This document shows, in pieces, positions 1,395-10,432 of a stretch of 10,432 nucleotides of DNA. Position numbers and translations under genes: made by a program. Position 1 is the first letter of the stretch; every line of letters starts with the position of its first letter. Origin of the DNA: Oscillospiraceae bacterium (lineage in GTDB: Bacteria > Bacillota > Clostridia > Oscillospirales > Oscillospiraceae); the NCBI GenBank assembly GCA_017538775.1, contig JAFYIF010000254.1, positions 1 through 10,432 of the forward strand, written 5' to 3'. The notes below the pieces were generated by a model. The model made no database searches. It was not told where the DNA came from and was given only the letters and a program-made list of their open reading frames with translations.

Positions 1395-1418
1395 CGTTCA
1401 GAAATCTGGATTTTCCCC

Positions 1419-1447
1419 TTGAGTTTTCCGAAAGCTGGCGATATAAT
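1419..1447 (+). promoter_or_regulatory. Sigma-A-type promoter of the V-ATPase operon
   Basis: TTGAGT (1419-1424) and a perfect TATAAT (1442-1447) are separated by 17 bases. Transcription would begin near 1454, leaving a leader of about 85 bases before the first gene. No other comparable promoter was seen before later genes, so it probably drives all nine. Confidence 0.8.
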
Positions 1448-1464
1448 AAAATTTGCGACTTGCG

Positions 1465-1504
1465 GCCGCTGTACAGATCCGTTTCCACGGACCGGCACAG
1501 CGGC
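1465..1504 (+). promoter_or_regulatory. Structured 5' leader hairpin of the V-ATPase mRNA
   Basis: GCCGCTGT (1465-1472) pairs with ACAGCGGC (1497-1504), and an inner TCCGT/ACGGA stem (1478-1482 with 1487-1491) is capped by a 4-base loop; a 5x5 internal loop separates the two. It lies about 11 bases after the predicted transcription start and 21 bases before the Shine-Dalgarno, with no T run. It is not a terminator; mRNA stabilisation or protein binding are possible roles. Confidence 0.5.
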
Positions 1505-1525
1505 TTGAAAGGAAAGAAGAACCAG

Positions 1526-1532
1526 AAGGAGG
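1526..1532 (+). promoter_or_regulatory. Ribosome binding site of the first V-ATPase gene
   Basis: Consensus AAGGAGG, 6 bases before the ATG at 1539. It fixes the start of the first operon gene. Confidence 0.8.
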
Positions 1533-1538
1533 GGTACT

Positions 1539-1849
1539 ATGTCGGCAGGTACGCTGGAAACTCTGGCTGCGGCCGAGGACCGGCTGAAGCGGGAGAAAGC
1601 GGAGACCGTTGCCGCCCTGAAACGCGCGGAGGCGGAGGCAAAGGCCCAGGGCGAGGAGCTGCTGGCCCAGGCGCGAGGGCGAGCCCAGGAGGAAATCGAG
1701 GCCCTGACGCGCCAGACCGTGGAGCGCTCCAAGGCCGCCGCCCGGACGCTGGCTGAGGAGAGCGAGCGGGAGCGGGAAGCCCTGCGCTCCAGGGCCAAGG
1801 AAAAGGAAGAGGACGCCATCGCCTACGTCCTGGAAAGGGTCATGGAATA

Positions 1850-1850
<1 letters not shown>
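1539..1850 (+). CDS. ntpF: V-type ATPase peripheral-stalk subunit H/G (NtpF-like)
   Basis: A 103-residue protein that is almost entirely one charged alpha helix. It has no Pro, Cys or Trp, and is built of Ala, Glu, Arg and Lys with heptad-like spacing, ending in the amphipathic stretch EDAIAYVLERVME. This size and composition fit the small stator subunit (H in archaeal A-ATPases, NtpF in E. hirae, G in eukaryotes). That subunit winds around subunit E in a right-handed coiled coil to form the peripheral stalk that keeps the A3B3 head from turning. Primary sequence of this family is poorly conserved, so the call rests on length, composition and position as the first gene, exactly where ntpF lies in E. 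hirae. Its stop TAA shares one base with the ATG of the next gene, implying translational coupling to the membrane subunit. Confidence 0.85.
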
Positions 1851-4308
<2,458 letters not shown>

Positions 4309-4330
4309 TCTGCGGGAAGCTGGATGCGAT

Positions 4331-4921
4331 ATGACCGGAATCGAAAAGATCATCGCCCGTCTGGAAGCGGAAGCCCAGGCCGAGCAGGAGGCCCTGCGCG
4401 CGGAGACCGAGGCGCGCAATCAGGCCCTGCTGGCCGACTGCCGGGAGAAGGCCGAGGCGATCTATGAAGCGGAACTGCGCGCCGGGAAAGCCGCCTGCGC
4501 CCTCCAGGGCGAGCGGCTCCAGAGCGCCGCGGAGATGGAGTCGAAAAAGCTGCTGCTGGGCTGCAAGCAGGAGCTGGTGAACGGCGTGTTCGAGCACGCG
4601 GTGGAGCGGCTCAGCCACATGGCCGGAGATCCCTATGTGGCCTTCCTGGTGAAGCAGGTCCTCCGCGCTGTCCAGACCGGGGACGAGGAGCTGGTCTTCA
4701 ACGCCCGGGACGCCCGGAAATACGGCAAGGACGTGGTCTGGACCGCCAACGCCCGTCTGGGCGCGAAGGGGCGGCTGCGGGTCTCCGAGGAGACGCGGGA
4801 CATCCCCGGCGGCGTCATCGTGAAGCGCGGCAACGTGGAAACCAACTGCGCCGCGGACCTGCTGGTGCAGCTCCAGCGCGCCGACCTGGCCTCCCAGGTG
4901 GCGGAGATCCTGTTCGCCTGA
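4331..4921 (+). CDS. ntpE: V-type ATPase peripheral-stalk subunit E
   Basis: A 196-residue stator protein. Residues 1 to about 100 are a long charged helix (IEKIIARLEAEAQAEQEAL onward) that pairs with the NtpF-like protein. Residues from about 105 form the globular head that binds the B subunit. The signature PGGVIVKRGNVETNCAADLL near residues 160-180 corresponds to the conserved 'GG' and 'N' region of V-type E subunits. Length is normal for the family. It follows subunit K by 22 bases; the ribosome site (GGGAAG near 4312-4317) is only fair. Its neighbours K and C are in the order seen in E. hirae. Confidence 0.93.
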   Translation: MTGIEKIIARLEAEAQAEQEALRAETEARNQALLADCREKAEAIYEAELRAGKAACALQGERLQSAAEMESKKLLLGCKQELVNGVFEHAVERLSHMAGDPYVAFLVKQVLRAVQTGDEELVFNARDARKYGKDVVWTANARLGAKGRLRVSEETRDIPGGVIVKRGNVETNCAADLLVQLQRADLASQVAEILFA

Positions 4922-4925
4922 GCAA

Positions 4926-4933
4926 AAGGGGGG
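4926..4933 (+). promoter_or_regulatory. Ribosome binding site supporting a TTG start
   Basis: AAGGGGGG lies 7 bases before the TTG at 4941. No in-frame ATG or GTG gives the full family N-terminus, so this site is the main support for the TTG start of subunit C. Confidence 0.6.
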
Positions 4934-4940
4934 ACGGGAT

Positions 4941-5927
4941 TTGGCAAGAAAGAAGCTGAAAACGAACGACTACATCGCCCTGTCGGCCTATCTCCGGGCA
5001 AAAGAGGCCCGGCTGCTGAGCCGGGAGGCCCTGGAGCGGATGCTCGCCGAGCCGAGCTTTGCCGAGGCCTGCCGCCTGGCCGTGGAGGCCGGGTACGCCG
5101 ACATGAGCGAGCAGGGGGTCCAGGGCATCCACGCGGCCCTGGCCGAGCACCGGCGCGCAGAGCTGGCGGAGCTGCGGGAGATGCTCCCCGACCCGGACCT
5201 GCTGCGGCTGGTTTGCCTCCAGTACGACTGCCACAACGCCAAGGCCCTGGTGAAGAGCGAGGGCGACCTTTCCAAGGCGGAAGCGCTCTATTCCCCCTCC
5301 GGCTGCTACAGCCTGCAGCAGCTCCGGGCGGTCTATGACGAGGAGAGCGGCGCCGGCGAGCTGGACCCGGACTTTGCCGAGGCCCTGCGGGAGGCCAAGC
5401 TGACCCTGGCCCGCACGGGCAATCCCCAGCTGGCGGACTTCCTGCTGGACCGGGCCTGGTTCGCGGCCCTGCTGAAAAGCGCCCAGGAGACCGGGCGGCG
5501 CTTCTTCCTGGACTATGTGCGGGCGAAAATCGACAAGGCCAACCTGCGCTCCGCCGTCCGCACCCTGGCGCTGCCCCGTCGGAGCGAGCTGCTGGCCGGG
5601 GCGCTGATCCCCGGCGGCACCGTGGAGCCGGAGCAGCTGCGGGACCCCACCCTGACGCGGGAGGATCTGGCGCGGCTCTACGCCCCCACTGTCTTCGCCG
5701 CCGCGGCGGAGGTGACGGACATGAGCGCCTTTGAAAAGGCCGCCGACAACGCGGAGCGGGAACTGGTCAGCTCCTGCGCCCTGATCTCCTTCGGCCCCGA
5801 GGTGGTGCTGGAGTACGTCTCCGCCCTGGAGTGCGAGATCATGAGCCTGCGCGTGATCTTGACCGGCAAGCGCATGGGCATCGGCGCGGACACGCTCCGG
5901 GAAAGACTGAGGGAGAGCTATGTATAA
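4941..5927 (+). CDS. ntpC: V-type ATPase subunit C (d subunit, rotor socket)
   Basis: A 328-residue, mostly helical funnel-shaped protein (AC39/d family) that sits on the K ring and receives the D/F central shaft. The N-terminus KTNDYIALSAYLRAKEARLL, the central LVCLQYDCHNAKALVKSEGD (the family's 'YDxHN' stretch) and the C-terminal SLRVILTGKRMGIGADTLRE are all typical, and length is normal. The family has three similar helical lobes, consistent with the repeating Leu/Ala-rich helices here. Translation is assigned to TTG at 4941, since the family N-terminus begins right there and the next in-frame Met is over 50 codons in. It starts 19 bases after subunit E, and its last 8 bases overlap the ATG of the next gene, implying coupled synthesis of the two central-stalk parts. 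Confidence 0.93.
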   Translation: MARKKLKTNDYIALSAYLRAKEARLLSREALERMLAEPSFAEACRLAVEAGYADMSEQGVQGIHAALAEHRRAELAELREMLPDPDLLRLVCLQYDCHNAKALVKSEGDLSKAEALYSPSGCYSLQQLRAVYDEESGAGELDPDFAEALREAKLTLARTGNPQLADFLLDRAWFAALLKSAQETGRRFFLDYVRAKIDKANLRSAVRTLALPRRSELLAGALIPGGTVEPEQLRDPTLTREDLARLYAPTVFAAAAEVTDMSAFEKAADNAERELVSSCALISFGPEVVLEYVSALECEIMSLRVILTGKRMGIGADTLRERLRESYV

Positions 5928-6237
5928 GATCGCGGTCATCGGCGGGCCGGACAGCGTGGCGGGCTTCCGCGCCCTGGGCCTGGACGCCTACCCGGTCCAG
6001 GACGCCCAGGAGGCGCGGCGCACCCTCCGGGAGATCGCCCGCCCCACGGACGACCCCTATGTGATCATCTATCTGGAGGAGACCCTGGCCGCCCCCATCC
6101 TGGACGAGGTGCGCCGTTATGACGCCCAGCCCACCCCGGCCATCATCCTGATCCCGGGCCGGGACGGCCCCATCGGCATCGGCCAGGAGGCCCTGCGGCA
6201 GGCGGTGGAGAAGGCCGTCGGCACGAATATTCTGTAA
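5920..6237 (+). CDS. ntpG: V-type ATPase central-stalk subunit F (NtpG)
   Basis: A 105-residue protein with the Rossmann-like (CheY-like) fold typical of subunit F. It opens with YKIAVIGGPDSVAGFRALGL, matching the usual 'IAVIGD.D.V.GFRLAG' opening, continues with DPYVIIYLEETLA and an AIILIPGRDGPIGIG strand-loop, and ends in an amphipathic helix. It binds subunit D and stiffens the rotor shaft; in E. hirae the same gene is called ntpG. Length is normal. GGGAG at 5911-5915 lies only 4 bases before the ATG, so translation may rely mainly on coupling from the overlapping C gene. Confidence 0.93.
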   Translation: MYKIAVIGGPDSVAGFRALGLDAYPVQDAQEARRTLREIARPTDDPYVIIYLEETLAAPILDEVRRYDAQPTPAIILIPGRDGPIGIGQEALRQAVEKAVGTNIL

Positions 6238-6246
6238 TTTGCTCAC

Positions 6247-6261
6247 GCCGCCCCCGGCGGC
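6247..6261 (+). other. Small GC hairpin between the F and A genes
   Basis: GCCGCC (6247-6252) and GGCGGC (6256-6261) form a tight stem with a 3-base loop in the 50-base gap between F and A, the longest gap in the operon. No T run follows. It could mark an mRNA processing or stability point that sets the level of the A and B messages; this is inference. Confidence 0.3.
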
Positions 6262-6287
6262 TTGGAAGGAAAGGAAACCGTTATTCT

Positions 6288-8054
6288 ATGAGTGGAAAAG
6301 TAGTCAAAGTCGCGGGCCCGCTGGTGGTGGCGGAGGGTCTGGCGGACGCCAACGTCAGCGACGTGGTCCGCGTCGGCCCCCGGCAGCTCATCGGCGAGAT
6401 CCTGAACATGACCGGCGACCGGGCGGACATCCAGGTCTATGAGGAGACCGGCGGCCTGGGCCCCGGCGCGGAGGTGGTCACCACCGGCGCGCCGCTGTCC
6501 GTGGAGCTGGGGCCGGGGATGCTGGAGGGCATCTATGACGGCATCCAGCGCCCCCTGACGGAGATCCGGGACCTGATCGGACACTCCATCGCCACGGGCA
6601 TCAGCGTGCCCGCCCTGAACCGCAAAAAGCACTGGGACTTCACCCCCTGCGTGGAGCGCGGGGCGAAGGTGGTGGGCGGCGACATCATCGGCACCGTGCC
6701 GGAGACCCCCACCGTCCAGCATAAGATCATGGTGCCCCCCCGTATGCACGGCACCATCGGTGGCATCCAGAGCGGCAGCTTCACCGTCACGGACCCGGTG
6801 GCGGTCCTCAAGACCGAGGACGGGGACGAGATTCCCCTGACCATGATGCAGACCTGGCCCGTGCGCGTGGGCCGTCCCTACACCCGCAAGTATCCCCCCG
6901 TGGCCCCGCTCCAGAGCGGCCAGCGCATCGTGGACACCCTGTTCCCCATCGCCAAGGGCGGCACGGCGGCCATCCCCGGCCCCTTCGGCAGCGGAAAGAC
7001 CGTCATGCAGCACGCCCTGGCCAAGTGGAGCGACGTGGACATCGTGGTCTACATCGGCTGCGGCGAGCGCGGCAACGAGATGACCGACGTGCTGAACGAG
7101 TTCCCGGAGCTGATCGACCCCCACACCGGCTATCCGCTGATGAAGCGGACGGTGCTGATCGCCAACACCTCCGACATGCCCGTGGCGGCCCGGGAGGCCA
7201 GCATCTACACCGGCATCACCATCGCCGAATACTTCCGCGACATGGGCTACCATGTGGCGGTCATCGCCGACTCCACCTCCCGCTGGGCCGAGGCCCTGCG
7301 CGAGATGAGCGGCCGTCTGGAGGAGATGCCCGGCGAGGAGGGCTATCCCGCCTACCTGGCCAGCCGCATCGCCCAGTTCTATGAGCGGGCCGGCATGGTG
7401 GAGTGCCTGGGCACGGATTCCCGCCAGGGCTCCGTCACCGCCGTGGGCGCGGTGTCGCCCCCGGGCGGCGACCTGTCCGAGCCGGTGAGCCAGGCCACCA
7501 TGCGCATCGTCAAGGTCTTCTGGGGCCTGGACAGCGCTCTGGCCTACGCCCGCCACTTCCCGGCCATCAACTGGCTGAACTCCTATTCCCTCTATCTGGA
7601 CTCCCTGAAGCCCTGGTATGAGGAGCGCTTCCCCGGCTTCATGGCGAACCGGGACCGGGCCATGGCCCTGTTGCAGGAGGAGGCCAGCCTGAACGAGATC
7701 GTGCGCCTGGTGGGCGCGGACTCCCTGGCCCCCAACGAGCAGCTGACCCTGGCCACAGCCAAGATGATCCGCGAGGACTTCCTGCAGCAGAACAGCTTCG
7801 TGGACATCGACTCCTACAGCGAGACCGAGCGCCAGTTCCTGCTGCTGGGCCTGATTCTGGACTGCGACCGCCTGAGCCGCGAGGCCATCGCCCAGGGCGT
7901 GGACATGGAGACGCTGCGGGCCCTGCCCTTCCGGGCCAGGATCGGCCGCGCCAAGAGCGTACCCGCCGGGGAGTACAAAGAAGTCTACACCCGTCTGGGT
8001 GAGGAACTGCGGGAGCAGATCGCCCAGGCGAAGCAGGGAGGCGAGGAAGCATGA
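6288..8054 (+). CDS. ntpA: V-type ATPase catalytic subunit A
   Basis: The 588-residue catalytic subunit; three copies alternate with B in the head and hydrolyse or make ATP. The N-terminal beta barrel begins [16 protein letters not shown]. The A-specific 'bulge' insertion lies around residues 115-190. The P-loop GPFGSGKT is at 231-238 with Lys237 and Thr238, and the catalytic GERGNE is at 259-264 with Glu260 and Arg261. The later Walker-B region [15 protein letters not shown] and a C-terminal helical domain follow. Length and motifs are normal and nothing catalytic is missing. The ribosome site is a purine stretch, GGAAGGAAAGG (6264-6274). The stop overlaps the ATG of the B gene in an ATGA, so A and B are translated in step, as expected for a 3:3 complex. 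Confidence 0.97.
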
Positions 8055-9439
8055 TCAAGGAATATCAGACCATACACGAGATCGCCAGCCCCCTGATGAT
8101 TGTGGATCAGGTGGAGGGCGTCACCTTTGACGAGCTGTGCGAGATCCGCCTGCCCGACGGCTCCGTCCGCCGGGGCAAGGTGCTGGAGGTGGACGGCGAC
8201 CGGGCCGTGGTGCAGCTCTATGAGTCCGCCGCGGGCATCAACCTGGCCCGCTCCAAGGTGCGCTTCCTGGGCCGCCCGCTGGAGCTGGCGGTCAGCGGCG
8301 ACATGCTGGGGCGCGTGTTCAACGGCATGGGCCAGCCCATCGACGGCGGCCCGGAGCTGCTGGCCGAGGCCCATCTGAACATCAACGGCCTGCCCCTGAA
8401 CCCCTCCGCCCGGGCCTATCCCGCCGAGTTCATCCAGACCGGCGTCAGCAGCATTGACGGCCTGAACACCCTGGTGCGCGGCCAGAAGCTGCCCATCTTC
8501 TCCGGCTCCGGTCTGCCCCACGCCAACCTGGCCGCCCAGATCGCCCGCCAGGCCAAGGTGCTGGGCGACAGCGGCAAGTTCGCCGTGGTCTTCGCCGCCA
8601 TCGGCATCACCTTTGAGGAGAGCGAGTACTTCGTCCAGGAGTTCCGCCGCACCGGCGCCATCGACCGGACGGTCATGTTCTCCAACCTGGCCGACCAGCC
8701 CGCCATCGAGCGCATCGCCACCCCCCGCATGGCCCTGACCGCCGCCGAATATCTGGCCTATGAGAAGGACATGCACGTGCTGGTCATCATCACGGATATC
8801 ACCAATTACGCGGAGGCCCTGCGTGAGATATCCGCCGCCCGTAAGGAGGTCCCCGGCCGCCGCGGCTATCCCGGCTACCTTTATACCGACCTCGCCACCA
8901 TGTACGAGCGCGCGGGCCGCATAAAGGGCTGCCCCGGCTCCATCACAATGATACCGATACTCTCCATGCCGGAGGACGATATCACCCACCCGATACCCGA
9001 CCTTACCGGCTACATCACCGAGGGGCAGATAATACTCTCGCGCGAGCTGAACAGGAAGGGCATAACCCCGCCCGTAAACGTGCTGCCGTCGCTCTCCAGC
9101 TTGAAGGACAAGGGCATTGGCAAGGGCAAAACGCGTGAGGATCACGCCGATACCATGAACCAGCTCTTCGCCGCGTATTCCCGCGGCAAGGAGGCGAAGG
9201 AGCTCGCCGTCATTCTTGGCGACGCCGCGCTTTCCGAGGTGGATAAGCTCTACGCCAAATTCTCCGACGAGTTCGAGGCGAAGTACGTTTCGCAGGGGTA
9301 TTACACCAACCGTTCCGTGGAGGAAACGCTCGACATCGGCTGGGAGCTTCTGAGGATACTCCCGAGATCGGAGCTCAGGCGTATCAGGGACGCGTATCTC
9401 GATAAGTATTACGAAAAGGACCGTGTAACGGAGCAGTAA
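8051..9439 (+). CDS. ntpB: V-type ATPase regulatory subunit B, Ser at the arginine-finger position
   Basis: The 462-residue noncatalytic nucleotide-site subunit. It opens with the beta barrel ([20 protein letters not shown]), has the family's degenerate P-loop [13 protein letters not shown] at 151-163, the [18 protein letters not shown] strand, and [20 protein letters not shown]. The segment [19 protein letters not shown] holds residue 350, where E. hirae NtpB has the arginine finger (R350, aligned with F1 alpha R373 and T. thermophilus B R360). Here codon 9098-9100 is AGC, Ser. The rest of the C-terminal domain is intact. The gene changes codon style part-way: before about 8822, 25 of 26 Leu codons are CTG with a single ATA; after it only 3 of 20 are CTG and nine ATA Ile codons appear. 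Either the gene is recombinant or the contig is chimeric. GGGAGG at 8036-8041 is its ribosome site, 9 bases before the ATG. Confidence 0.95.
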
Positions 9440-10069
9440 ATGGCTATTTCGTACAAGCCCACGCGCATGGAGATGAGCCGCCTTAAAAAGAGGCTCGTCA
9501 CCGCCACGCGCGGACACAAGTTAATGAAGGACAAGCGCGATGAAACGGTGCGCCGCTTCATCACGTTCGTGCGCCGCAACAAGGAATTGAGGGAGCGCGT
9601 CGAAGCGCTCATGGCGGAATCGATGCAGAGCTTCGTGATCGCGAAGGCGACCATGAGCTCCGCCGCCGTGGAGGAGGCGCTCTGCTACCCCGCTTCCGCC
9701 GCGAGGATAGGCGTCGAAAGCGCGAAGGTGCTCTCGACGGAGGTGCCGCGCCTCTCCTACATCCCCACCGAAACGCACGGGCTGCCCTACGGCGTGCTCG
9801 GCACCTCGTCGGAGCTCGATAACGCCGTCGCCCGCTTCTCGGAGCTGATGCCCCTTCTTATAGAGCTCGCGGAGGTGGAGAAGACCTGCAACCTTCTGGC
9901 GGACGAGATAGAGAAGACCCGCCGCCGCGTCAACGCGCTGGAGTACGTTATGATCCCCCAGCTCAAGGACGCGATACACGATATCTCCATGAAGCTCGAC
10001 GAAAACGAGCGCGGCAACCTGACCCGCCTCATGAAGACGAAGGATATGCTGAAGCAAAAAGAGGGGTAA
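9440..10069 (+). CDS. ntpD: V-type ATPase central-shaft subunit D
   Basis: A 209-residue rotor shaft protein, equivalent in role to F1 gamma. The N-terminal helix (PTRMEMSRLKKRLVTATRGH, then KLMKDKRDETVRRF) and the C-terminal helix (EVEKTCNLLADEIEKTRRRV, then NALEYVMIPQL) form the long antiparallel coiled coil that fits into the A3B3 head. A short middle portion contains the ETHGLPYGVLGTS segment. Length and sequence are normal for NtpD. The ATG directly follows the B stop codon; GGAG at 9430-9433 is 6 bases upstream. It uses the same ATA- and CTC/CTT-rich codon style as the second part of the B gene, unlike the seven genes upstream. It is the last gene of the operon; ntpH and ntpJ, which follow in E. 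hirae, are absent, and no clear T-rich terminator follows directly. Confidence 0.95.
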   Translation: MAISYKPTRMEMSRLKKRLVTATRGHKLMKDKRDETVRRFITFVRRNKELRERVEALMAESMQSFVIAKATMSSAAVEEALCYPASAARIGVESAKVLSTEVPRLSYIPTETHGLPYGVLGTSSELDNAVARFSELMPLLIELAEVEKTCNLLADEIEKTRRRVNALEYVMIPQLKDAIHDISMKLDENERGNLTRLMKTKDMLKQKEG

Positions 10070-10086
10070 GCCAGAGAATAAAGCGC

Positions 10087-10124
10087 ACAGTGTACAGTGC
10101 AAAGCTGATAGCTGATAACCGATA
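10087..10124. repeat. Short direct repeats (ACAGTG x2, GCTGATA x2 plus a variant)
   Basis: ACAGTG occurs at 10087-10092 and 10094-10099. GCTGATA occurs at 10104-10110 and 10111-10117, followed by a diverged copy, ACCGATA (10118-10124). They lie between the subunit D stop and the palindromic repeat. From memory, similar runs of TGATAACTGATA-like and ACAGTGTACAGT-like units are common filler between genes in gut Clostridia; no function is evident. Confidence 0.55.
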
Positions 10125-10136
10125 GTTGTATTGTCA

Positions 10137-10219
10137 CCTCATCCGCCGCCCCCAAAGCCTTCTCCCCCTCGGCGGAGAAGGTGGCAGCAAGGCCGTAAGG
10201 CCGAAGCTGACGGATGAGG
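10137..10219. repeat. REP/MITE-like palindromic intergenic element
   Basis: Outer arms CCTCATCCG (10137-10145) and CGGATGAGG (10211-10219) enclose an 8-bp inner stem, CCTTCTCC (10158-10165) with GGAGAAGG (10174-10181), and a small GGCC-GTAA-GGCC hairpin (about 10191-10202). The result is a three-stem, cloverleaf-like fold of 83 bases with no coding capacity. The arms and the CCTTCTCC...GGAGAAGG core resemble a repeat I recognise as abundant between genes in gut Clostridia. It probably was dispersed as a short nonautonomous element, and may serve as the 3' end of the operon mRNA. Confidence 0.6.
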
Positions 10220-10243
10220 GGGCAGACATAAACCACGGCATAA

Positions 10244-10281
10244 GAAAAAAGCATGGTCGGAGATCATTCTCCGGACCATGC
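10244..10281 (-). terminator. Rho-independent terminator of the downstream minus-strand gene
   Basis: On the minus strand GCATGGTCCGGAGA (10281-10268) pairs with TCTCCGACCATGC (10263-10251): 13 pairs with one bulged C and a 4-base loop, followed by six T (10250-10245). It lies 17 bases after the stop codon at 10299. From the plus side the stem is followed only by a weak T-rich stretch (TGTTATTAT), so it could also partly end the ATPase transcript. Confidence 0.85.
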
Positions 10282-10298
10282 TGTTATTATATCCGTTT

Positions 10299-10432
10299 TT
10301 ACCAGCCCGTCTTGTCGAAAGGCGCGCCGGTGGTCATGGTGCTGTCCGTCGCGATATGATAGGCGTCGGAGGGGAACATGAACCATTTGTAGAAGCGGCT
10401 GTCGCGGTAGGAATCCGAGCCGCTGTCGCACC
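10299..10432 (-). CDS. C-terminal fragment of an unidentified protein
   Basis: The last 43 codons of a minus-strand gene entering from the right edge, ending at TAA (10301-10299) and followed by a strong terminator. The visible residues include RDSRFYKWFMFPSDAYHIAT and end in GAPFDKTGW. The stretch is aromatic- and Asp/Ser-rich with no Cys pair or membrane segment. It could be the end of an extracellular or carbohydrate-related protein, but no family is recognised. Support for it being real is the G/C-ending codon pattern and the terminator at the expected distance. It is convergent with the ATPase operon, so it is not a further subunit. Confidence 0.65.
   Translation of the reverse strand, partial: CDSGSDSYRDSRFYKWFMFPSDAYHIATDSTMTTGAPFDKTGW

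Follow-up and report, generated by a model that had tools for sequence, protein, structure and literature searches.

A contig of an Oscillospiraceae MAG joins two bacterial lineages within the V-ATPase B gene

Chimeric contigs and mosaic V-ATPase genes

Contigs that combine fragments of different sources are known from MAGs, and the part of the GUNC paper that treats them attributes such chimeric contigs to misassembly, which it describes as relatively rare beside mis-binning (PMC8201837). The stretch of DNA analysed here (the window) is 10,432 nucleotides long and is the whole of contig C268 of an Oscillospiraceae MAG (G000; 1,825,244 bases in 360 contigs). Like the chimeric contigs treated in that part of the GUNC paper, the window joins fragments of different sources; unlike them, it does so inside one gene and with the reading frame kept.

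A second kind of system with which the window can be compared is homologous replacement that gives rise to a mosaic gene. The window resembles it in that the switch sits at corresponding positions of orthologous genes, but differs in having no second crossover, distant parents, a single contig on which the join is seen, and near-identical sequences of the right-hand type elsewhere. The affected operon is itself familiar: the bacterial V/A-type ATPase operon is ordered I-K-E-C-F-A-B-D, and both parents carry the usual subunits. Unlike the standard operon, the window has B and D genes that stem from more than one organism. Below, we call sequences resembling the beginning of the window left-type and those resembling its end right-type.

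One join inside the B gene

Codon usage changes abruptly within the B gene. Upstream of base 8822, CTG is used for 25 of 26 leucines and ATA for 1 of 20 isoleucines (codon 8), whereas from 8822 to the end of B the counts are 3 of 20 and 9 of 16. In subunit D, CTG accounts for 6 of 23 leucine codons, CTC and CTT together for 15 of 23, and ATA for 4 of 10 isoleucine codons, while ATA is absent both from the seven V-ATPase genes upstream of B and from the minus-strand gene at 418-1311. These values were obtained by recounting the codons, and they bear out the CTG, ATA, CTC and CTT counts made by eye in the initial annotation. A likelihood scan over the eight genes from I to D placed the top single change point in codon choice at base 8822 (gain 124.7). 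When synonymous codons were shuffled 60 times and each seventh position was scanned, the gain averaged 27.4 and did not exceed 38.3. The best further split gained 37.1 within the left part and 25.1 within the right part, which leaves a single strong break. The change in codon usage is genuine and abrupt.

Comparison with related B proteins puts the join slightly further upstream. We considered the 135 residues that differ between P0002 and P0093, two B proteins that resemble the parents of the window. The B protein of the window matches P0002 at the first 80 of these informative residues and P0093 at the last 55, with no exceptions. The left type is last seen at residue 240 (codon 8768-8770), and the right type first appears at residue 247 (codon 8789-8791), which places the join at 8771..8789 on the plus strand. 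Over residues 1-247 the window differs from P0002 solely at residue 247, over residues 248-462 it differs from P0093 solely at residue 350, and the reading frame runs intact across the join for all 462 residues. A base alignment with ten relatives, five of each type, puts the switch between 8788 and 8789: base 8788 is left-like (all five right-type relatives differ, and four of five left-type relatives agree), and the sequence is right-like from 8789 onward, a position at which all five left-type relatives differ. Measured in 60-base steps, identity between the window and the same-genus genome G001 is 90-100% as far as 8770 and 50-82% beyond 8890; in between, over 8771-8890, the two lineages resemble each other and the value is 85-87%. 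Against the two nearest right-type relatives it rises from 52-80% to 82-98%, with 68% at the extreme end of B. The window contains one join and has its origin in two lineages.

These comparisons refine the location that had been assigned by eye. The relatives put the join some 30-50 bases ahead of the codon signal at 8822. The switch had been located between the motif [13 protein letters not shown] and a second one, [20 protein letters not shown], but it precedes the first of the two by a short distance. The initial annotation had also suggested that conserved DNA could have brought the join about. This idea is borne out only in part: the join falls a little ahead of the best-conserved stretch, and we found no exact common run of at least 14 bases across 8771-8789 in 25 pairs of relatives (five left-type by five right-type), which stand in for the DNA of the true parents. 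An exact common run as the cause of the join was rejected because these relatives show none.

Trees built separately from the two halves of the B protein, an approach the initial annotation had put forward, are discordant, and the halves fall in different lineages. In careful trees built from 30 selected rows, the left half groups with P0002 and G001 (support 99/95), and the right half lies in a clade with P0093, L060, L057, L069, L071 and L074 (support 94/96) inside a starred 12-row clade. The AU test rejected placement of the right half in the window's own genus (p 1.27e-9, 30 chosen rows) and likewise placement of the left half within the right-type clade (p 3.67e-16, 29 chosen rows; P0002, identical to the window there, was omitted). 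The rows of both tests were picked by hand from 109, and L020, L021 and L033 were dropped from the 109-row set owing to incomplete matches. In a quick tree of the right half with all 109 rows, the forks beside the window are weak (0, 0, 79 and 94), and a 20-row clade has a support of 97.

Composition separates the two parts as well. A tetranucleotide comparison of left and right, likewise proposed beforehand, gave the right part a score of -0.281. This is lower than all 40 pieces taken from 16 readable contigs of G000 (minimum -0.049; 76,626 bases, with 7 further contigs read as N) and inside the range of right-type sequences (maximum -0.137, n = 19 pieces). By a simple ORF rule, the readable G000 contigs use ATA for 19 of 826 isoleucines and CTG for 1493 of 2068 leucines. 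The right part of the window uses ATA for 13 of 26 and CTG for 9 of 43, and five right-type loci use them at 40-51% and 21-28%, respectively. The composition of the right side is foreign to the rest of G000.

Native operon and foreign end

The left part, 1402..8770 on the plus strand, encodes V-ATPase subunits H/G-like, I, K, E, C, F and A and residues 1-240 of B, names that come from NCBIfam matches; we assign it to the MAG's own genus from its alignment with G001 and from the composition of other G000 contigs. A single alignment with G001 spans 1402-9386 at 90.6% identity overall; the DNA of subunit A is 95.3% identical over 1503 of 1767 bases, and that of the left part of B (8051-8821) is 95.7% identical. 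Each of the nine operon genes, H/G-like-I-K-E-C-F-A-B-D, was matched in NCBIfam, in most cases scoring lower than the equivalog cut-off; the match of the H/G-like gene is weak (22.4 bits), and B exceeds the cut-off of its own model, NF003235. With PF02874, PF00006 and PF22919, B carries the domain set of a full-length protein in Pfam. Beside the operon, the minus-strand gene at 418-1311 has a weak match to a 2-oxoacid dehydrogenase acyltransferase catalytic domain (27.5 bits; cut-off 23) and is also present in G003, with 82.5% DNA identity.

To the right of the join, DNA and protein identity assign residues 247-462 of B (8790..9439, plus strand) to the right type, near Christensenella sp. UBA3857. 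Over 597 of the 615 bases of 8822-9436, the DNA is 90.8% identical to L060, the locus of Christensenella sp. UBA3857, which NCBI taxonomy places in the Christensenellaceae, and 90.1% identical to L057, a related right-type locus. Subunit D (9440..10069, plus strand) is likewise right-type by its DNA identity, 90.4% to both L057 and L060, and by its membership in protein cluster P0122, and it matches PF01813 in Pfam.

Two features lie in the tail that follows D (10070..10432): an interspersed repeat, at about 10151-10224, and a convergent minus-strand gene, of which the 3' end is present. The tail is syntenic with both loci: its positions 242-325 align with L060 6544-6627 and its positions 248-358 with L057 11107-11218, in each case immediately downstream of D. 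The last 43 codons of the convergent gene, which is open to the contig end, align with the end of the L057 gene at 11084-12157, itself a weak transglutaminase-like match under the Pfam cut-off. The tail sequence, mainly the repeat, finds matches in five of five right-type genomes and in none of three same-genus genomes, and in G000 it has no copy besides the window itself; a looser search returned two short, weak same-genus matches of 34 and 16 bases (E 0.006). Since the tail is syntenic with right-type loci and unmatched in the three same-genus genomes, the foreign part extends to the contig end, and as far as the contig goes there is no second crossover back to native sequence. The earlier expectation that, in a chimera, the rest of the contig would belong to another genome therefore holds, with the foreign part beginning at about 8789 rather than about 8830. 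As for the repeat of which 10151-10224 is part, it occurs in all five right-type genomes searched, with several copies in most, and is absent from the three same-genus genomes.

The hybrid B protein forms a cluster of one sequence on one contig, the 10,432-base window itself. Of 8000 proteins scored, the best 120 include none besides the B of the window that is at least 93% identical in both halves, the next best reaching 85.2 and 86.9%. Unchimeric forms of both parents exist: P0002 (17 member sequences) is 99.6% identical in the left half and 74.9% in the right, and P0093 (3 contigs) is 68.9 and 99.5% identical. Subunit D is the representative of P0122, which has 17 member sequences on 7 contigs. 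The longest P0122 contig measures 27,105 bases, equal to the longest of P0093, and the two are probably one and the same contig. A search with 8690-8890 in 300 genomes of the family gave a best other match of 89%; thus, among those best 120 of 8000 scored proteins and the 300 family genomes, the join is absent from other assemblies.

Misassembly, recombination and local codon preference

A two-organism origin, which had been raised as a possibility, is strongly supported by the 80/55 split of informative residues, the AU tests and the DNA identities. The initial annotation had left the choice between homologous replacement and an assembler join open. We consider it very probable that the contig is an assembly chimera of two organisms in a fragmented MAG. 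Misassembly is favoured because a single contig carries the chimera, both parent forms are known, the parents are distant, the sequence never returns to the native type, and the MAG is broken into 360 contigs. The two organisms, namely the MAG's Oscillospiraceae genus and a relative of Christensenella sp. UBA3857, would have been present in one sample, each carrying a V-ATPase operon that ends in A-B-D. The assembler would have left the first genome for the second inside the B gene, at 8771-8789, such that about 8789-10432 (the last part of B, the complete D gene, the repeat in the intergenic region and a portion of the convergent gene) would belong to the second organism. The join was thus probably made by software or in a chimeric library molecule, not in a cell. 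The intact B frame, the low CheckM-type contamination estimate of G000 (0.27%, at 94.26% completeness) and the lack of a long exact run in the relatives speak against an assembly chimera. So does the search of G000 for its native B end and D, which another contig might carry if the join alone were wrong: it recovered neither, but both may lie on short contigs, since 7 of 20 sampled contigs, all of those under 3 kb, read as N.

Alternatively, an Oscillospiraceae cell could very recently have taken up right-type DNA by recombination, replacing the end of B, D and the flank. The intact frame and the position of the join at the homologous site of the same gene fit such an event, as does the failure to recover the native right half from the G000 contigs that could be read. 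However, the parents belong to different families, and from 8771 onward, as far as B extends, identity between the two B types is about 50-85% per 60-base step, one conserved step excepted, a level that is poor ground for homologous exchange. The foreign part also passes beyond the operon into a repeat and another gene and never returns, the hybrid is seen on one contig only, and near-identical right-type proteins exist elsewhere (the right part of B has one difference from P0093, and D belongs to a 7-contig cluster). Natural transfer would require distant parents, no trace of a second crossover and great recency, whereas no special circumstances are required for a chimeric join when a MAG is fragmented. 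We therefore judge recombination to be highly improbable. Its consequence, a living Oscillospiraceae strain whose working V-ATPase has a between-family hybrid B, joined at residues 240-247 in the nucleotide-binding domain, and a co-transferred D, too recent to show in any other genome, appears very unlikely. Codon use can vary along genes, but a local codon preference, shaped by expression or selection in one native gene without any foreign DNA, is hardly credible and was ruled out by the protein trees and the foreign tail, given that the protein lineage switches at the same place, both AU tests contradict it and the noncoding tail is foreign too.

Were it a biological event, the hybrid would come as a surprise, but an error in the data is by far the likeliest origin. 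The last 1.6 kb of the contig, with B from residue 247 and D, is therefore unsuitable as data on the species of this MAG, and databases and trees of proteins should not take up the hybrid B as a natural sequence. Even so low a contamination estimate does not keep an in-frame chimera out of a conserved gene, and gene-level or marker-based checks may miss a join of this kind.

We also followed the native DNA downstream of the operon in G001, which matches G000 contigs C281 and C256. These contigs were rejected as proof of a broken join: the SpoIIP gene of C281 adjoins a different locus, as in G003, and the gene order of G001 is not that of G000 there. The downstream DNA of G003, used as a query in G000, recovered no native D. 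Gene order thus differs within the genus in the position of SpoIIP, which lies beside V-ATPase D in G001 and at another locus in G000 (L134, which is C281, 5400-6888) and G003 (see also L115, 6526-7358). Between D and SpoIIP, G001 has two small genes resembling a toxin-antitoxin pair.
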